A stretch of 64,000 bases of DNA from Pseudomonas oryzihabitans (GTDB lineage: Bacteria > Pseudomonadota > Gammaproteobacteria > Pseudomonadales > Pseudomonadaceae): contig NZ_CP013987.1 in the NCBI RefSeq assembly GCF_001518815.1, forward strand, positions 372,001 to 436,000, read 5' to 3'. How positions within the stretch are numbered: the first letter of the stretch is position 1; every line of letters starts with the position of its first letter. A program made the translations under genes and the position numbers. Below, piece by piece: positions 14,288 to 21,192 of the stretch. Below the pieces are notes generated by a model, which saw only the letters and a list, made by a program, of their open reading frames with translations, did no database searches and was not told where the DNA came from.

Positions 14288-16057
14288 ATGGCTGACTACA
14301 CCCCGCCGCTTCGCGATATCCGTTTCGTGCTGGATGCCGTCCTCAAGGTCAAGGACCGCTGGAGTCAGTGGCCCGCCCTGGCCGAGGTGGTGGACGGCGA
14401 GACCGCCGATGCCATCCTCGAAGAAGCCGGCAAGCTGTGCGCCCAGGAACTGGCGCCGCTCAATCGCAATTCCGATGAAGAAGGCTGCCACTGGCAGAAC
14501 GGCGAGGTCGCCACGCCGCAGGGCTTCCGTCAGGCCTACCAGGCCTTCGCCGAAGGCGGCTGGGTCGGCGTCGGTGGCGATCCCGAATACGGCGGCATGG
14601 GCATGCCCAAGGTGCTCACCGCCCAGGTCGAGGAAATGATGCACGCCAGCTGCCTGGCCTTTGGTCTCTATCCGATGCTCAGCGCCGGTGCCTGTCTGGC
14701 CCTGCACGCCCACGGCAGCGAGGCACTCAAGCAGGCCTATCTGCCCAATCTCTACAGCGGCCAGTGGGCCGGCTCCATGTGCCTGACCGAGCCCCACGCC
14801 GGTACCGACCTGGGACTGATCCGCACCCGCGCCGAACCCCAGGCCGATGGCAGCTACCGCGTCACCGGCACCAAGATCTTCATCACCGCCGGCGAGCACG
14901 ACCTCACCGAGAACATCATCCACCTGGTGCTGGCCAAGCTGCCCGATGCACCGGCCGGCTCTCGGGGCATCTCGCTGTTCCTGGTGCCCAAGATCCTGGT
15001 GGACGAGGCGGGCACCCTGGGCGAGCGCAACGCCGTGGCTTGCGGCTCGCTGGAACACAAGATGGGCATCAAGGGCGCCGCCACCTGCGTGATGAACTTC
15101 GACGGCGCGGTCGGCTATCTGGTGGGCGAGGTCAATAAGGGCCTGGCTGCCATGTTCACCATGATGAACTATGAGCGCCTGGGCGTTGGCATCCAGGGCC
15201 TGGGGTCGAGCGAGCGCTCCTACCAGAATGCCCTGGCCTATGCCCGCGAGCGCCTGCAGAGCCGCTCGCCTGCCGGTGTTCAACAGGCCGCCAAGAACGC
15301 CGACCCGATCATCGTGCACCCTGACGTGCGCCGCATGCTGCTGACCATGAAGGCGCTGAACGAAGGCGGGCGGTTGTTCTCCAGCTATGTCGCCCTGCAA
15401 CTCGACACCGCCAAGTACAGCCCCGAGCCCGCCGAGCGCGAACGTGCCGAAGCCCTGGTGGCGCTGCTGACCCCGGTGGCCAAGGGCTTCCTCACGGATC
15501 TTGGCCTGGACCTGTGCGTGATCGGCCAGCAGGTGTTCGGTGGCCATGGCTACATCCGCGAGTGGGGACAGGAGCAACTGGTGCGCGACGTGCGCATCAC
15601 CCAGATCTACGAGGGCACCAACGGTATCCAGGCGCTCGACCTGGTCGGCCGCAAGCTGGCCGGTAGCCGCGGGGCGCTCTATCGACCCTTCAGCGAAGAG
15701 GTCCACGGCTATCTCGCCGGTCTCCCGGCGGACAACGAATTCGCCGCGCCCCTGCGCCAGGCGCTGGAGCGGTTGGACGGGGTGACCGAATGGCTGCTGC
15801 AGGCCGGTGCCAGCGATCCCCACCAGCTCGGCGCGGCCTCGGTGGACTACCTGCACCTGTTCGGCTATGTCGCCTATGGCTATCTCTGGGCGCGTGCCGC
15901 TGCCGCGGCGGCGGATCAGGACGCGGCCTTCGCCGAGGCCAAGCTCGCCACCGCACGGTTTTATTTCACTCGTCTGCTGCCCCGTACCCTGAGCCTGGAG
16001 GCCGCCGTGCGCAGTGGCGCGCAGCCGCTCTACGCTCTGGCTGAGGAGGCTTTCTAA
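14288..16057 (+). CDS. Acyl-CoA dehydrogenase, paralogue of the preceding gene
   Basis: 589 residues, collinear with the preceding dehydrogenase along its length: same N-terminal PPLRDIRFV start, MCLTEPHAGTDLG, TGTKIFITAGEHDL, and IYEGTNGIQA with the putative catalytic Glu at about 442. It therefore arose by tandem duplication and probably differs in chain-length preference. I placed the start at the ATG at 14288, preceded by GAGGAG. The frame opens 132 nt earlier, but that stretch contains the terminator tail and non-family residues. The upstream gap shows no PsrA-like box, so regulation may differ from its neighbour. Confidence 0.9.
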   Translation: MADYTPPLRDIRFVLDAVLKVKDRWSQWPALAEVVDGETADAILEEAGKLCAQELAPLNRNSDEEGCHWQNGEVATPQGFRQAYQAFAEGGWVGVGGDPEYGGMGMPKVLTAQVEEMMHASCLAFGLYPMLSAGACLALHAHGSEALKQAYLPNLYSGQWAGSMCLTEPHAGTDLGLIRTRAEPQADGSYRVTGTKIFITAGEHDLTENIIHLVLAKLPDAPAGSRGISLFLVPKILVDEAGTLGERNAVACGSLEHKMGIKGAATCVMNFDGAVGYLVGEVNKGLAAMFTMMNYERLGVGIQGLGSSERSYQNALAYARERLQSRSPAGVQQAAKNADPIIVHPDVRRMLLTMKALNEGGRLFSSYVALQLDTAKYSPEPAERERAEALVALLTPVAKGFLTDLGLDLCVIGQQVFGGHGYIREWGQEQLVRDVRITQIYEGTNGIQALDLVGRKLAGSRGALYRPFSEEVHGYLAGLPADNEFAAPLRQALERLDGVTEWLLQAGASDPHQLGAASVDYLHLFGYVAYGYLWARAAAAAADQDAAFAEAKLATARFYFTRLLPRTLSLEAAVRSGAQPLYALAEEAF

Positions 16058-16089: not shown

Positions 16090-16107
16090 TGTAAGCTTTG
16101 GCTTACA
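16090..16107 (+). promoter_or_regulatory. GacA upstream activating sequence
   Basis: TGTAAG-CTTTGG-CTTACA is an exact match to the published TGTAAG-N6-CTTACA element bound by the response regulator GacA. It is centred about 65 bp upstream of the expected RNA start, the spacing seen at rsmX/Y/Z promoters. Confidence 0.9.
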
Positions 16108-16151
16108 TGACGTCGCCGCGATAAGCCATCGCCTAGTCCAGGGGAGCTGCG

Positions 16152-16157
16152 TAATCT
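16152..16157 (+). promoter_or_regulatory. -10 element of the Rsm RNA
   Basis: TAATCT, 44 bp after the GacA box and about 7 bp before the proposed transcript start near 16164. No good -35 is seen, as expected for an activator-dependent promoter. Confidence 0.55.
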
Positions 16158-16163
16158 ACACCC

Positions 16164-16340
16164 ATCGGATCGCGGTACAGGATGTACCCAGCGCTCCAGG
16201 TGATTTCAAGGAAATATGGCCAGGATGGCCCCCCGGCACGGATGTCGGGCAGAGACTCTCAAGGATAGATGGCCAAGGATTGGCGGCCCGACAGGGATGT
16301 CGGGTTAAGTCTACGAAACCCCGCTTCGGCGGGGTTTTTT
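16164..16340 (+). ncRNA. rsmY: RsmX/Y/Z-family regulatory RNA, probably RsmY
   Basis: An RNA of about 177 nt that should titrate the translational repressor RsmA/CsrA. It has about eight GGA motifs, many exposed in hairpin loops: GGTACAGGATGTACC (16174-16188), GGCCAGGATGGCC, CCGGCACGGATGTCGG, GCCAAGGATTGGC and CCCGACAGGGATGTCGGG. It ends in a rho-independent terminator (16316-16340). The GacA box and -10 place the 5' end. The assignment to RsmY rather than X or Z is inferred from position: in P. aeruginosa rsmY follows the denitrification block that lies after the homologous acyl-CoA dehydrogenases (from memory). It is longer than the usual 110-130 nt. Confidence 0.85.
16316..16340 (+). terminator. 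Terminator of the Rsm RNA
   Basis: AAACCCCG/CGGGG(TTT) stem with a CTTCGG loop and six T. The stem is almost the same as the terminator at 14120-14142. Confidence 0.9.
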
Positions 16341-16416: not shown

Positions 16417-16575
16417 ATGGACCTTATCCGCCTGATCTTCGCCATCATCCTGCCTCCCGTGGGCGTCTTCCTGCAGGTCGGCTTTGGCGGTGCCTTCTGG
16501 CTGAACATCCTGCTGACGCTGCTGGGCTATATTCCGGGTATCATCCATGCCGTCTGGGTAATCGCCCGTCGCTGA
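16417..16575 (+). CDS. Pmp3/YqaE-family membrane peptide
   Basis: 52 residues with two hydrophobic helices joined by a short Gly-rich turn (QVGFGGAFWLN). The pattern IILPPVGVFLQ ... NILLTLLGYIPGIIHAVWVI is the UPF0057/Pmp3 family signature. These stress-induced proteolipids sit in the inner membrane, and in yeast they affect cation leak and membrane potential. The ribosome site GGAG lies 7 nt before the ATG. A hairpin CGGACGCA/TGCGTCCG (16585-16603) follows the stop. The gene directly follows the Rsm RNA terminator; co-regulation is not evident. Confidence 0.88.
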   Translation: MDLIRLIFAIILPPVGVFLQVGFGGAFWLNILLTLLGYIPGIIHAVWVIARR

Positions 16576-16833: not shown

Positions 16834-19800
16834 ATGAATCGCGAGTCGCCCCTCGATCAGAAGCACTTCAGCAAGATCCTCAAACGCAATCTCTCGCTGC
16901 CTCTGAGCATCGGCGTCTTCAGCGCGATCTTTTTCATCGCCATCATCTATTACCTGCTGCGGGTCACCCAGTGGGTCGAGCACACCGACCGCGTCATCAG
17001 CGAGGCCAACGCCAACTTCCGGCTGGTGGTCGATCTGGAAACCGGGATGCGTGGCTACCTGCTGAGCGGCAACACCAGTTTCCTGCAGCCCTATGAGCGG
17101 GCCTTGCCCGAGGTCGAGCCACAGCTCGATGAGCTCAAGAATCTGGTCAGCGACAGCGCCGTGCAGATTCGCCGGCTGGAACGGATCGCGGCGGTGCACC
17201 GGGAGTGGCGCCAGTATGCGAGCCAGGTGATCGAAGCGCGGCGGCTGGGTGGCGACTTCCAGACACCGCTGAGCGACGGCCAGGGCAAGAACCGCATCGA
17301 CAGCATCCGCCGCGACTACACCGATTTCATCGCCTACGAAGAGCAGATGCGCGCCGAGCGCACCGAGACGGCCAGCCGCATGACGGTGGTGTTCGTCGCC
17401 GCCTTCCTGATCGTCAGCCTGCTGCTGTCAGGCATCATGGCCTTCTTCGGTCGCCGCGAACTCATGCGGCTCTCCGCCACCTATACCGGCCTGCTCGACC
17501 AGCAGGCCGAGCACACCGAGAATCTGGAGCGGCAGAGCTGGTTCCGCTCGGGCCAGAATCAGTTGTCCGAGGCCGTCATTGGTCAGGCGGCGCTGGCGCC
17601 CTTGGGGCAGAGCATCCTGCAATTCCTGGCGCGCTACCTGGGCGCCGCCGCTGGCGCTCTTTATGTCCGCCTCGATGACGGCACCCTGGAGCGGGTGGCC
17701 GACTATGCCCTGGATGACGAGGGGCGTCGCCGTCGCCAGCGGCTGGCACCGGGCGAAGGCCTGGCGGGCCAGGCCGTACTGGAAGGGCGCGCGGTGGCGC
17801 TGGACCAGCTGCCCGCCGACTACCTCAAGGTCAATTCGGCCCTGGGCGAGCGCCAGGCCAGCGCCGCGCTCATCGTGCCCATCGAGAACGACGGTCGGGT
17901 GAATGGCGTGCTCGAACTGGGCTTCCTGCGCGCCCTGCAGCCACAGGACAAGGAGTTGCTGACGCTGATCGCCGACTCCATCGGCTCCTCCGTGGAGGCG
18001 GCCCGTTATCGCCAGCGCCTGCAGCAGGTGCTGGCGGAAACCCAGCAGCTCAACGAAGAGCTGCAGGTGCAGCAGGAAGAACTGCGCACGGCCAACGAAG
18101 AGCTGGAGGAACAGTCCCAGGCGCTCAAGGAATCCCAGGTTCATCTGGAGCAGCAGCAGGCCGAGCTGGAGCAGACCAACGAGCAGCTGTCCGAGCAGGC
18201 CCAGGAACTGCTGCAACAGCGCGATGTGCTGGATGACCGCAACAATCGCCTGAACGAAGCCCAGCAATTGCTGGAGGACCGTGCGCGCGAGCTGGAGCGG
18301 GCCAGCCAGTACAAGTCCGAATTCCTGGCGAACATGTCCCACGAGCTGCGCACGCCGCTGAACAGCTCGCTGATCCTGTCCAAGTTGCTGGCGGACAACC
18401 CGGCCGGCAACCTGAGCGGCGAGCAGGTGCGCTACGCCGAGTCCATCTATTCGGCGGGCAACGATCTGCTCACCCTGATCAACGACATTCTCGACATCTC
18501 CAAGGTCGAGGCCGGCATGCTGGAGATCCGCCCGGAGCAGATGTCCGTGCGCCGCCTGGTGGAAGCCCTGAAGACCGCCTTCGAACCGGTGGCCCAGAAC
18601 AAGGGCGTTGGCTTTGAGGTGGAACTGGACGCGCAGATGCCAACGTCCTTCTTCAGCGATCGGCAACGGGTCGAACAGATCCTCAAGAACCTGCTGTCCA
18701 ACGCCTTCAAGTTCACCGAACACGGCCAGGTCACCCTGCGCCTGTCCCTGGAGGATGGCCAGCCCAGCTTTGCCGTCAGGGATACCGGCATCGGTATCGC
18801 CGCCGAGCAGCAGGAGCTGATCTTCGAAGCCTTCCGCCAGGCGGACGGCGCCATCACCCGTCGCTATGGCGGTACCGGGCTCGGGCTGTCGATCTCCCGC
18901 GATCTGGCGCTGTTGCTGGGTGGTACGCTGAGCGTCACCAGCCAGCCGGGCGAGGGCAGTACCTTCACCCTGCGTCTGCCGCTGGAATACCAGGAAGCCG
19001 CTGCGCCCACTCTGCCAGTGACGCCGGTGAGCGCGCCTGCCGTGGCTACCACTCCGGTGTCCGCGCCCATGCCCCTGGCGACCCTGGCCGCTACCCCGCG
19101 TCCATCCGCACCGGCGCCGATCACCGAGGCGGCGGCACCCGTGGGTGCGGCCTTCGCCGACGACCGAGACAACTGGCCCTATCCGGATCGCCGGGTACTG
19201 GTGATCGAGGACGAAGTGCCCTTCGCCCAGATCCTCTTCGATCTCGCCCATGAGCTGAAGTACAGCTGCCTGGTCGCCCATCGTGCCGAGGAAGGCTTCG
19301 CCATCGCCCTGGAATACCGCCCCGACGCCATCCTGCTGGACATGGGGCTGCCGGATCATTCCGGCCTCACGGTGCTGGAGCGGCTCAAGGAAAATCCGCT
19401 GACCCGCCACATCCCGGTGCACGTGGTCTCGGCCTCGGACCGCGTCGAGACCGCCATGCACATGGGCGCGGTCGGCTATGCCATCAAGCCCACCACCCGC
19501 GACGAACTCCGCGAAGCCTTCACCCGCCTGGAGTCCAAGTTCGCCGCTGGCATCAAGCGCGTGCTGCTGGTGGAAGACGACGCCTTGCAGCGTGACAGCA
19601 TCGCCAAGCTGATCGGCGACGTCGACGTGGAGATCACTGCGGTGGAGATGGGCAGTCAGGCCCTGGATCTGCTGCGCGACGAGGTCTACGACTGCATGGT
19701 CATCGACCTCAAGCTCCCCGACATGGAAGGCGGCGAACTGCTCGAACGCATGGCCAGCGAAGACATCTGCTCCTTCCCGCCGGTCATCGTCTACACCGGT

Positions 19801-20370
19801 CGCAGCCTGTCGCGTGACGAAGAAGCCACGCTGCTCAAGTATTCGCGCTCCATCATCATCAAGGGCGCTCGCTCACCGGAGCGGCTGCTCGACGAGGTGA
19901 CCCTGTTCCTGCACAAGATCGAGGCCGACATGCCGCTCGATCGCCAGCGCATGCTGGAGAGCGCCCGTAGCCGCGAGAAGGCTTTCGACGGCCGCACCCT
20001 GCTGCTGGTGGACGACGACGTGCGTAACATCTTCGCCCTCACCAGCGCCCTGGAGCAGAAGGGTGCCAAGGTGGAGATCGCCCGCAACGGCCTGGAAGCC
20101 CTGGAAAAGCTCGACAACAGCGACACCATCGACCTGGTACTGATGGACATCATGATGCCGATGATGGACGGCTACGAAGCCATGCGCGAGATCCGCAAGC
20201 GACCGCACATGAAGAAGCTGCCGATCATCGCTATCACCGCCAAGGCGATGAAGGACGACCAGGAGCGCTGCCTCGCCGCGGGTGCCAGCGACTACCTGGC
20301 CAAGCCCATCGACCTGGATCGGCTGTTCTCGCTGATCCGCGTCTGGATGCCCTCGCTGGAGCGCCTGTAA
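16834..20370 (+). CDS. Hybrid sensor histidine kinase with CHASE3, GAF and three receiver domains
   Basis: 1178 residues. In order: membrane helix (about 13-38), periplasmic CHASE3 domain (40-180), second helix (about 185-208), GAF domain (235-390), long Gln/Glu-rich coiled coil (395-490), HisKA with His 503 in SHELRTPL, HATPase (NLLSNAFKF, DTGIGI, GTGLGLSI), a Pro/Ala-rich linker, then receivers with phospho-Asp at about 836, 958 and 1105. Part of its signal path must therefore be intramolecular. The ATG at 16834 is preferred; a TTG 45 nt upstream is in frame. It is first in an operon with CheR, CheB and a second kinase, with only 3 bp to cheR. The signal is unknown. Confidence 0.93.
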   Translation: MNRESPLDQKHFSKILKRNLSLPLSIGVFSAIFFIAIIYYLLRVTQWVEHTDRVISEANANFRLVVDLETGMRGYLLSGNTSFLQPYERALPEVEPQLDELKNLVSDSAVQIRRLERIAAVHREWRQYASQVIEARRLGGDFQTPLSDGQGKNRIDSIRRDYTDFIAYEEQMRAERTETASRMTVVFVAAFLIVSLLLSGIMAFFGRRELMRLSATYTGLLDQQAEHTENLERQSWFRSGQNQLSEAVIGQAALAPLGQSILQFLARYLGAAAGALYVRLDDGTLERVADYALDDEGRRRRQRLAPGEGLAGQAVLEGRAVALDQLPADYLKVNSALGERQASAALIVPIENDGRVNGVLELGFLRALQPQDKELLTLIADSIGSSVEAARYRQRLQQVLAETQQLNEELQVQQEELRTANEELEEQSQALKESQVHLEQQQAELEQTNEQLSEQAQELLQQRDVLDDRNNRLNEAQQLLEDRARELERASQYKSEFLANMSHELRTPLNSSLILSKLLADNPAGNLSGEQVRYAESIYSAGNDLLTLINDILDISKVEAGMLEIRPEQMSVRRLVEALKTAFEPVAQNKGVGFEVELDAQMPTSFFSDRQRVEQILKNLLSNAFKFTEHGQVTLRLSLEDGQPSFAVRDTGIGIAAEQQELIFEAFRQADGAITRRYGGTGLGLSISRDLALLLGGTLSVTSQPGEGSTFTLRLPLEYQEAAAPTLPVTPVSAPAVATTPVSAPMPLATLAATPRPSAPAPITEAAAPVGAAFADDRDNWPYPDRRVLVIEDEVPFAQILFDLAHELKYSCLVAHRAEEGFAIALEYRPDAILLDMGLPDHSGLTVLERLKENPLTRHIPVHVVSASDRVETAMHMGAVGYAIKPTTRDELREAFTRLESKFAAGIKRVLLVEDDALQRDSIAKLIGDVDVEITAVEMGSQALDLLRDEVYDCMVIDLKLPDMEGGELLERMASEDICSFPPVIVYTGRSLSRDEEATLLKYSRSIIIKGARSPERLLDEVTLFLHKIEADMPLDRQRMLESARSREKAFDGRTLLLVDDDVRNIFALTSALEQKGAKVEIARNGLEALEKLDNSDTIDLVLMDIMMPMMDGYEAMREIRKRPHMKKLPIIAITAKAMKDDQERCLAAGASDYLAKPIDLDRLFSLIRVWMPSLERL

Positions 20371-20373
20371 GTC

Positions 20374-21192
20374 ATGAGCGAACGGCTGCAGGACATTGAG
20401 CTGAGGTTGCTGCTGGAAGGCGTCTTCCTGAGATACAGCCACGATTTCCGCAATTATTCCAAGGCCTCGCTCAAGCGCCGGGTGTTGCAGGCGCTGACAC
20501 GCTTCGACTGCCCGAGCATCTCGGCCCTGCAGGAGCGGGTGCTGCGCGATCCGGCGCTGTTTGCCGAGCTGCTGCAATTCATCACCATCCCGGTCAGCGA
20601 GATGTTTCGCGATCCGGGCTACTTCCTCGCCCTGCGCCAACAGGTCGTGCCGGTGCTGCGCACCTATCCCTCGCTCAAGGTGTGGATCGCCGGTTGCAGC
20701 ACCGGTGAGGAAGTCTTCTCGATGGCCATCCTGTTCCAGGAAGAGGGGCTGCTCGACCGTACCCTGTTCTATGCCACCGACATCAATCCGCGCTCCATGG
20801 AGAAGGCCCGCCAGGGCATCTTTCCGCTGGAGCGGATGCGCGCCTATACCGCCAGCTATCAGAAAGCGGGCGGCACCCGGGCCTTCTCCGACTACTACAC
20901 CGCGGCTTACGACGGCGCCCTGTTCGACAAGTCGCTGATCGCCAACGTGACCTTCGCCGACCACAGCCTGGCCACCGACAGCGTCTTTTCCGAGACCCAG
21001 CTGGTGTCCTGCCGCAACGTGCTCATCTACTTCAACAAGAATCTGCAGAACCGGGCGCTCGGCCTGTTCCACGAGTCCCTGAGTCACCGCGGCTTTCTCG
21101 GCCTGGGCAGCAAGGAGTCGCTGGACTTCTCCGCCTATGCCAGCCACTTCGAGCCGGTGGTGAAGCAGGAACGCCTGTTCCGCAGGCTCTAG
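20374..21192 (+). CDS. CheR-type protein methyltransferase
   Basis: 272 residues with the CheR N-terminal helical domain (about 10-65) and the SAM-binding domain: the AGCSTGEEVFSMAI motif, the acidic ATDINPRSMEKAR loop, and VSCRNVLIYFN. CheR transfers methyl groups from SAM to glutamates of chemoreceptors; here no receptor gene is nearby. There are no TPR repeats. It begins 3 bp after the hybrid kinase and ends 1 bp before cheB, so translation is probably coupled. The acceptor is unknown and might be the coiled coil of the adjacent kinase; that is inference. Confidence 0.9.
   Translation: MSERLQDIELRLLLEGVFLRYSHDFRNYSKASLKRRVLQALTRFDCPSISALQERVLRDPALFAELLQFITIPVSEMFRDPGYFLALRQQVVPVLRTYPSLKVWIAGCSTGEEVFSMAILFQEEGLLDRTLFYATDINPRSMEKARQGIFPLERMRAYTASYQKAGGTRAFSDYYTAAYDGALFDKSLIANVTFADHSLATDSVFSETQLVSCRNVLIYFNKNLQNRALGLFHESLSHRGFLGLGSKESLDFSAYASHFEPVVKQERLFRRL

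Follow-up and report, generated by a model that had tools for sequence, protein, structure and literature searches.

The window analysed here is a stretch of 64,000 nucleotides (G000:C1:372001-436000) from a single-contig genome of 4.83 Mb, which is presumably to be placed in the oryzihabitans/rhizoryzae group of Pseudomonas and has Pseudomonas rhizoryzae RY24 (L048) among its close kin, with an acyl-CoA dehydrogenase that is 96% identical. Between the acyl-CoA dehydrogenase gene of the window and a gene coding for a small Pmp3-family protein lies a complete Gac/Rsm-type RNA locus (Table 1). The initial annotation had described it as such, and its perfect GacA box, its -10 element, its eight GGA motifs and its terminator are all present, as is the room for a predicted RNA of about 177 nt. 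The ORF list contains no frame of at least 80 aa that overlaps the RNA, and a search of a plasmid collection gave no match. Downstream of the locus, at 16834-21192 of the window, come the gene of a CHASE3/GAF hybrid histidine kinase that has three receiver domains and, after it, a CheR gene.

Table 1. Features of the long rsmY locus (positions in the window).
Feature	Position	Strand	Evidence and remarks
Acyl-CoA dehydrogenase gene	14291..16057	+	Upstream neighbour; syntenic marker of rsmY; Pfam Acyl-CoA_dh domains
GacA box TGTAAGCTTTGGCTTACA, palindromic upstream activating sequence	16090..16107	+	Perfect consensus, 0 mismatches
-10 element TAATCT	16152..16157	+	Sequence; 62 bases from box start
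Predicted long RsmY-type RNA, about 177 nt	16164..16340	+	-10 position, alignment of 10 genus copies, terminator
5' hairpin with GGA at 16180	16174..16188	+	Predicted folds; hairpin-loop probability 1.0
Module copy 1: linker AAGGA, hairpins 16218-16230 and 16232-16249, AGACT	16206..16257	+	
Module copy 2: linker AAGGA, hairpins 16272-16284 and 16285-16306, AGTCT	16259..16312	+	Agrees with copy 1 in 42 of 54 alignment columns
Intrinsic terminator CCCCGC-TTCG-GCGGGG followed by T6	16316..16340	+	Sequence, predicted folds
Gene for 52-aa Pmp3-family protein	16417..16575	+	Downstream neighbour; Pfam PF01679, 79.6 bits

The GacA box was compared with the consensus as printed in PMC11837529. A search of the complete genome (4.83 Mb) for the palindrome TGTAAG-N6-CTTACA, allowing one mismatch at most, gave only two sites, this box and one upstream of rsmZ, and a reversed control of the pattern had no match genome-wide; with two mismatches allowed, 0.43 matches would be expected by chance in the window. 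The distance from the start of the box to the -10 element is 62 or 63 bases in all 73 measured rsmY loci (from the best 80 of 567 relatives plus the window and two sister-clade genomes, G002 and G004), as determined by a script that admitted spacings of 61-63 and boxes with up to three mismatches. The sequence around the -10 element, GCTGCGTAATCTACAC, recurs in four of the five tandem rsmX copies of the same genome. A promoter scan detected no sigma-70 -35/-10 pair at the locus, and the lack of such a pair might be expected for an activator-dependent promoter.

The RNA occupies the orthologous site of RsmY, downstream of the acyl-CoA dehydrogenase gene, and combines the marks of a Gac/Rsm sponge: a palindromic GacA box upstream of the promoter, multiple GGAs, several of them in hairpin loops, and an intrinsic terminator. 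In a survey by the acyl-CoA dehydrogenase neighbour, covering the best 80 of 567 confirmed relatives as named loci, this gene proved to be followed directly by RsmY-type RNAs in Pseudomonas and Stutzerimonas; it lies upstream of such an RNA at 71 of these 80 named loci and at further loci of the family. The script found box, -10 element and terminator in 73 of 83 loci tested (the named ones, 71 of which passed, plus the window, G002 and G004); the ten loci dropped were L062, L064, L077, L079, L080, L082, L095, L096, L111 and G004, the last of which was measured afterwards from a hand-set start. A record titled Pantoea sp. Cy-639 (L065), possibly misnamed, carries a Pseudomonas-type acyl-CoA dehydrogenase together with an rsmY locus.

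The affinity to RsmX, RsmY and RsmZ supposed in the initial annotation was supported by Rfam in one respect and limited in another: RsmY (RF00195) is the sole strong match, with its full model (1-121) aligned over 16209-16338 and the next family at 23.5 bits, yet the score of 49.5 bits stays below the gathering score of 57, and a relative of the clade (L048) reaches 51.6. CsrB (RF00018) was not among the matches listed for the RNA, which exclude three lower-scoring overlapping matches of the same clan and may thus conceal a weaker CsrB match behind RsmY. At the same site and between the same two neighbours, G002 and G004 contain a short RNA that matches RsmY above the cut-off (76.8 and 74.3 bits); a third genome without the long form is G005, the site comparison covering the other two. 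The Pmp3-family gene adjoins the RNA in all 10 long-form loci as well as in G002 and G004. As it was held against the Rfam threshold and fell short of it, the RNA is filed outside RF00195, and, judged by its sequence, it is an elongated variant of the rsmY locus and not a member of that family.

That the RNA is longer than its kin was confirmed. In the window and in two named relatives (L048 and L049) the body, counted from the start to the terminator stem, has 151 nt, and in P. peradeniyensis BW13M1 (L124) it has 145 nt; the remaining 69 of the 73 measured loci (from the best 80 of 567 plus the window, G002 and G004) have bodies of 92-102 nt. The extra 55 nt or so correspond to a tandem duplication of a two-hairpin module. 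The RNA of the window, aligned to itself, scores 68, the maximum of 500 dinucleotide shuffles being 44; the 10 long-form species score 58-68 and 70 other rsmY orthologs (from the best 80 of 567) 22-38, a comparison that controls for the mutual resemblance of GGA hairpins. Copy 1 and copy 2 match each other with a score of 68, and score 47 and 52 against rsmX, 37 and 34 against the rsmZ region and 30-53 against five canonical RsmYs. Since the copies are closer to each other than to any of these, the sequence suggests that the additional length stems more probably from an internal duplication within rsmY than from a fusion. Neither this duplication nor the short form of the sister clade had been recognised in the initial annotation.

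The long form is a real variation of the family, as had been surmised, and is found throughout the lineage: 10 of the 13 genomes of the genus contain it, namely that of the window and nine more with 92-96% identity. L048 and L049 very likely represent the same genomes as G009 and G012 and so add nothing independent to the 10. A covariance model built from the 10 long RNAs (R1) gave 221-231 bits in these genomes and at most 50.9 bits elsewhere among 398 genomes of the family, in a search with stricter filters in force and with a long-form model that could miss some other kinds of lengthening. All eight GGAs are kept without change by the 10 long-form species, among which 3 of 45 columns vary in the 5' module, 3 of 53 in copy 1 and 8 of 56 in copy 2. 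The greater variability of copy 2 is left unexplained by the model proposed below.

The predicted fold of the RNA has an energy of -73 kcal/mol (z -2.17), equalled by 5 of 200 shuffles. A consensus of the 10 long RNAs contains 57 pairs, none of which is broken in any of them, and seven show one-sided changes that retain pairing; changes on both sides of a pair were absent from the 57 pairs in these 10 sequences. Covariation, considered as a proof of the fold, was accordingly not found among the 10 sequences, whose mean column identity is 98%, and the fold rests on energy and conservation. The terminator at the 3' end was not listed by a consensus terminator scan.

The eight GGAs lie at 16167, 16180, 16210, 16223, 16240, 16263, 16277 and 16295. 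The RNA had been called GGA-rich, and this holds for their predicted presentation, not for their raw number. In 70 other rsmY orthologs (from the best 80 of 567) there are 5-9 GGAs per RNA, with a mean of 7.54, and in the 73 measured RNAs (from the best 80 of 567 plus the window, G002 and G004) eight GGAs is the count of 42, with seven in 25, nine in 2, six in 2, twelve in 1 and five in 1. A raised number of GGAs was therefore rejected as a novelty of the long form (8 against a mean of 7.5 in the 70 orthologs). According to ViennaRNA predictions, 4.6 GGAs are expected in hairpin loops in the window RNA, against a mean of 1.83 in the 70 other orthologs from the best 80 of 567 (sd 0.48, maximum 2.96); this value differs among near-identical relatives, the lowest among the 10 long RNAs being 3.4 (L024), close to the canonical maximum, and the highest 5.5. 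High-affinity loop sites have been described for the CANGGAYG stem-loops of RsmV (PMC9308961). If GGAs in loops are the high-affinity sites, their predicted doubling would mean that one molecule of the long form is expected to take up more RsmA dimers than the canonical RsmY, and the original reading of an excess of GGAs, wrong in count, may be right in effect provided that loop presentation is what counts.

The genome of the window also encodes the other components of a Gac/Rsm system. Its RsmA has 61 aa (90.2 bits), and a GacA homolog is encoded that scores 306.9 bits against a curated cut-off of 280. RsmZ (RF00166) is matched with 78.1 bits, its GacA box starting 191 bases before the match. 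Five rsmX-like genes are arranged in tandem (L017:1450-2555; G000:C1, about 1082449-1083559) with a period of 229 bp; they are 97% alike and each has its own -10 element and terminator. Upstream, only the CTTACA half of a GacA box is plain. By BLAST, the other long-form genomes have four rsmX copies (G001), three (G003), five (G008), two (G007), two (G009), three (G012), one (G010), two at contig ends (G011) or none (G006), several of the assemblies being drafts, and the sister-clade genomes G002, G004 and G005 have 8, 7 and 8 dispersed rsmX-like copies; the RsmY model matches them at 10, 8 and 10 places, respectively. Such multiplicity is in itself already known from published cases: PMC7911923 describes rsmX pairs in tandem for P. 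brassicacearum, F113 and P. stutzeri and as many as five rsmX for P. syringae, and PMC7366521 describes RsmZ1-7 together with RsmY1-2 for Azotobacter. A second, partial match to the CsrA domain (L129, G000:C1:1862494-1862580; 28.7 bits, Pfam cut-off 27) falls within an odd 142-aa frame that contains a short repeat of the MHHASCI type.

From these elements a mechanism can be proposed. Phosphorylated GacA would bind the box and activate the promoter of the RNA of about 177 nt, which would display GGAs in hairpin loops and linkers and bind the 61-aa RsmA; RsmA would thus be kept off its target mRNAs, which would then be translated. The inner module, formed by a GGA linker and two GGA hairpins, would have been duplicated in tandem in the ancestor of the clade; the predicted number of GGAs presented in loops, probably those of high affinity, would thereby have roughly doubled, with no rise in the raw count. 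Taken as a whole, the RNA is very probably a GacA-controlled, RsmA-sequestering variant of rsmY that is long because of this internal duplication in the ancestor of the clade. Its anatomy, synteny, duplication and conservation are features of the DNA itself, and from them we infer transcription, dependence on GacA, binding of RsmA and the stoichiometry of that binding.

Other explanations account for the locus less well. The functional RNA might be an RsmY of canonical length, its 5' part being removed by processing or bypassed by a second start further downstream, so that the duplication would add nothing; this would agree with the alignment of the Rfam RsmY model to 16209-16338 only, but it is highly improbable, because the box, the -10 element and the spacing of 62 bases fit a start at 16164, the same -10 context precedes four of the five rsmX copies, none of the eight GGAs varies across the 10 species, and neither the 5' module nor copy 1 is less conserved than copy 2. 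The duplication itself might be apparent, copy 1 being derived from an rsmX gene by gene conversion or recombination, and the rsmX genes of the same genome do have the promoter core in common with rsmY and a similar series of hairpins. Such a fusion is unlikely in view of the copy-to-copy score, which exceeds that of either copy against rsmX, and of the second copy, which repeats the linker and the AGWCT end as well.

The score below the RsmY gathering cut-off might in turn be taken as the sign of a separate, newly evolved Csr/Rsm-type RNA that is not orthologous to rsmY. There is very little to be said for this, since RNAs above the cut-off lie at the same site and next to the same neighbours in two genomes of the sister clade, no site in the genome of the window exceeds the RsmY cut-off, so that no canonical rsmY was found elsewhere in it, and rsmX and rsmZ do lie at other sites. 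An rsmY lengthened by duplication of its inner module is the preferred reading.

Lengthening of rsmY is also seen in other lineages. In P. peradeniyensis BW13M1 it is the 5' hairpin module that is duplicated (self-alignment score 54), and the RNA has 12 GGAs, of which 3.76 are expected in loops. In a tree of the acyl-CoA dehydrogenase this locus is placed together with three putida-group rows whose RNAs have the ordinary length, which indicates that its lengthening was independent; the tree has a midpoint root and several poorly resolved forks, its branch to the window clade is unexpectedly long, and its body-length labels for L138, L140, L152, L201, L206 and L142 are estimates by eye.

In another genus of the family (g5), the RsmY model has a match in 36 of 37 sampled genomes, and the RNA was measured by the script in 31; five loci of the 36 were left out of this measurement (L138, L140, L152, L201 and L206), their printed sequences looking canonical by eye. 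Among the 31, 24 bodies have 92-101 nt and seven are long, with 168 and 170 nt (11 GGAs), 244 and 259 nt (18), 329 nt (22), 409 nt (28) and 487 nt (36). The long loci are L146 (G094), L149 (G180), L150 (G032), L156 (G183), L157 (G186), L158 (G176) and L161 (G172), and all seven have a GacA box with no or one mismatch upstream and the same acyl-CoA dehydrogenase neighbour. The longest RNA, from the one-contig genome G172, reaches 515 nt with its terminator and is composed of tandem units of about 80 nt, and the bodies of 329, 409 and 487 nt differ in steps of about one such unit. Between 3.9 and 11.2 GGAs are expected in loops in six of the seven (L149 is missing). The best Rfam match of the five longest is CsrB, with 37.8-49.6 bits, below the cut-off of 71, and in L161 RsmY is matched separately as well, with 35.0 bits. 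The tree unites the three longest in a single supported clade (99/96), and lengthening within g5 may go back to one event or to several. In the measurement of family loci, 17 of 58 were without a length (nine without a terminator by the script's rule and eight without a box), L150, one of the 17, was measured separately, and L160, whose box has four mismatches, is probably an rsmX. No title or abstract naming the lengthening of rsmY in the window clade or in g5 was found, in a literature search whose coverage lay outside most subscription journals, so that novelty is unproven.

Csr/Rsm sponge RNAs differ widely in size. They usually have little sequence in common (PMC11882849) and, for both reasons, the origin of the large ones is hard to trace. 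The RNA described here resembles RsmY (RF00195) in its locus, its GacA box, the spacing from box to -10, its 5' GGA hairpin, the order of a CAGGA hairpin and a AAGGATGTC-type hairpin, the AGTCT ahead of the terminator and the TTCG terminator, and differs from it in the length of the body (in the comparison with 69 of 73 loci from the best 80 of 567), in the duplicated module and in the score below the cut-off. It shares with rsmX-1 and rsmX-2 of P. brassicacearum, as described in PMC7911923, the role of a GacA-controlled RsmA sponge, here suggested by sequence, and amplification by duplication, although whole genes were duplicated there and a part of a single RNA here; the genome of the window has whole-gene amplification too, with its five rsmX copies. 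P. aeruginosa RsmV (192 nt, PMC9308961) is similar in length and in having several GGAs in stem-loops, a likeness taken from published descriptions, but PMC7366521 describes its transcription as independent of GacS-GacA and its origin as probably independent. With CsrB/RsmB (RF00018) the RNA has repeated GGA hairpins in common, although E. coli CsrB has 22 GGAs (PMC11882849) against eight here.

The balance inclines slightly towards rsmY being an expandable sponge gene, in which the duplication of different inner modules would have occurred independently in lineages of Pseudomonadaceae, the outcome ranging from about 50 additional nt in the window clade and in P. peradeniyensis to an RNA of the size of CsrB in G172, at the same site and under the same GacA box, and the capacity to sequester RsmA would be tuned either by the valency of rsmY or by the copy number of rsmX, with five tandem copies here and 7-8 dispersed ones in the sister clade. 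One syntenic gene can be traced here from the canonical RsmY of about 120 nt, through the duplicated form of 177 nt, to the g5 forms with CsrB as their best Rfam match, and the stepwise growth of a protein-sequestering RNA, as well as the weight of valency against gene copy number in the titration of RsmA, thus becomes directly testable.
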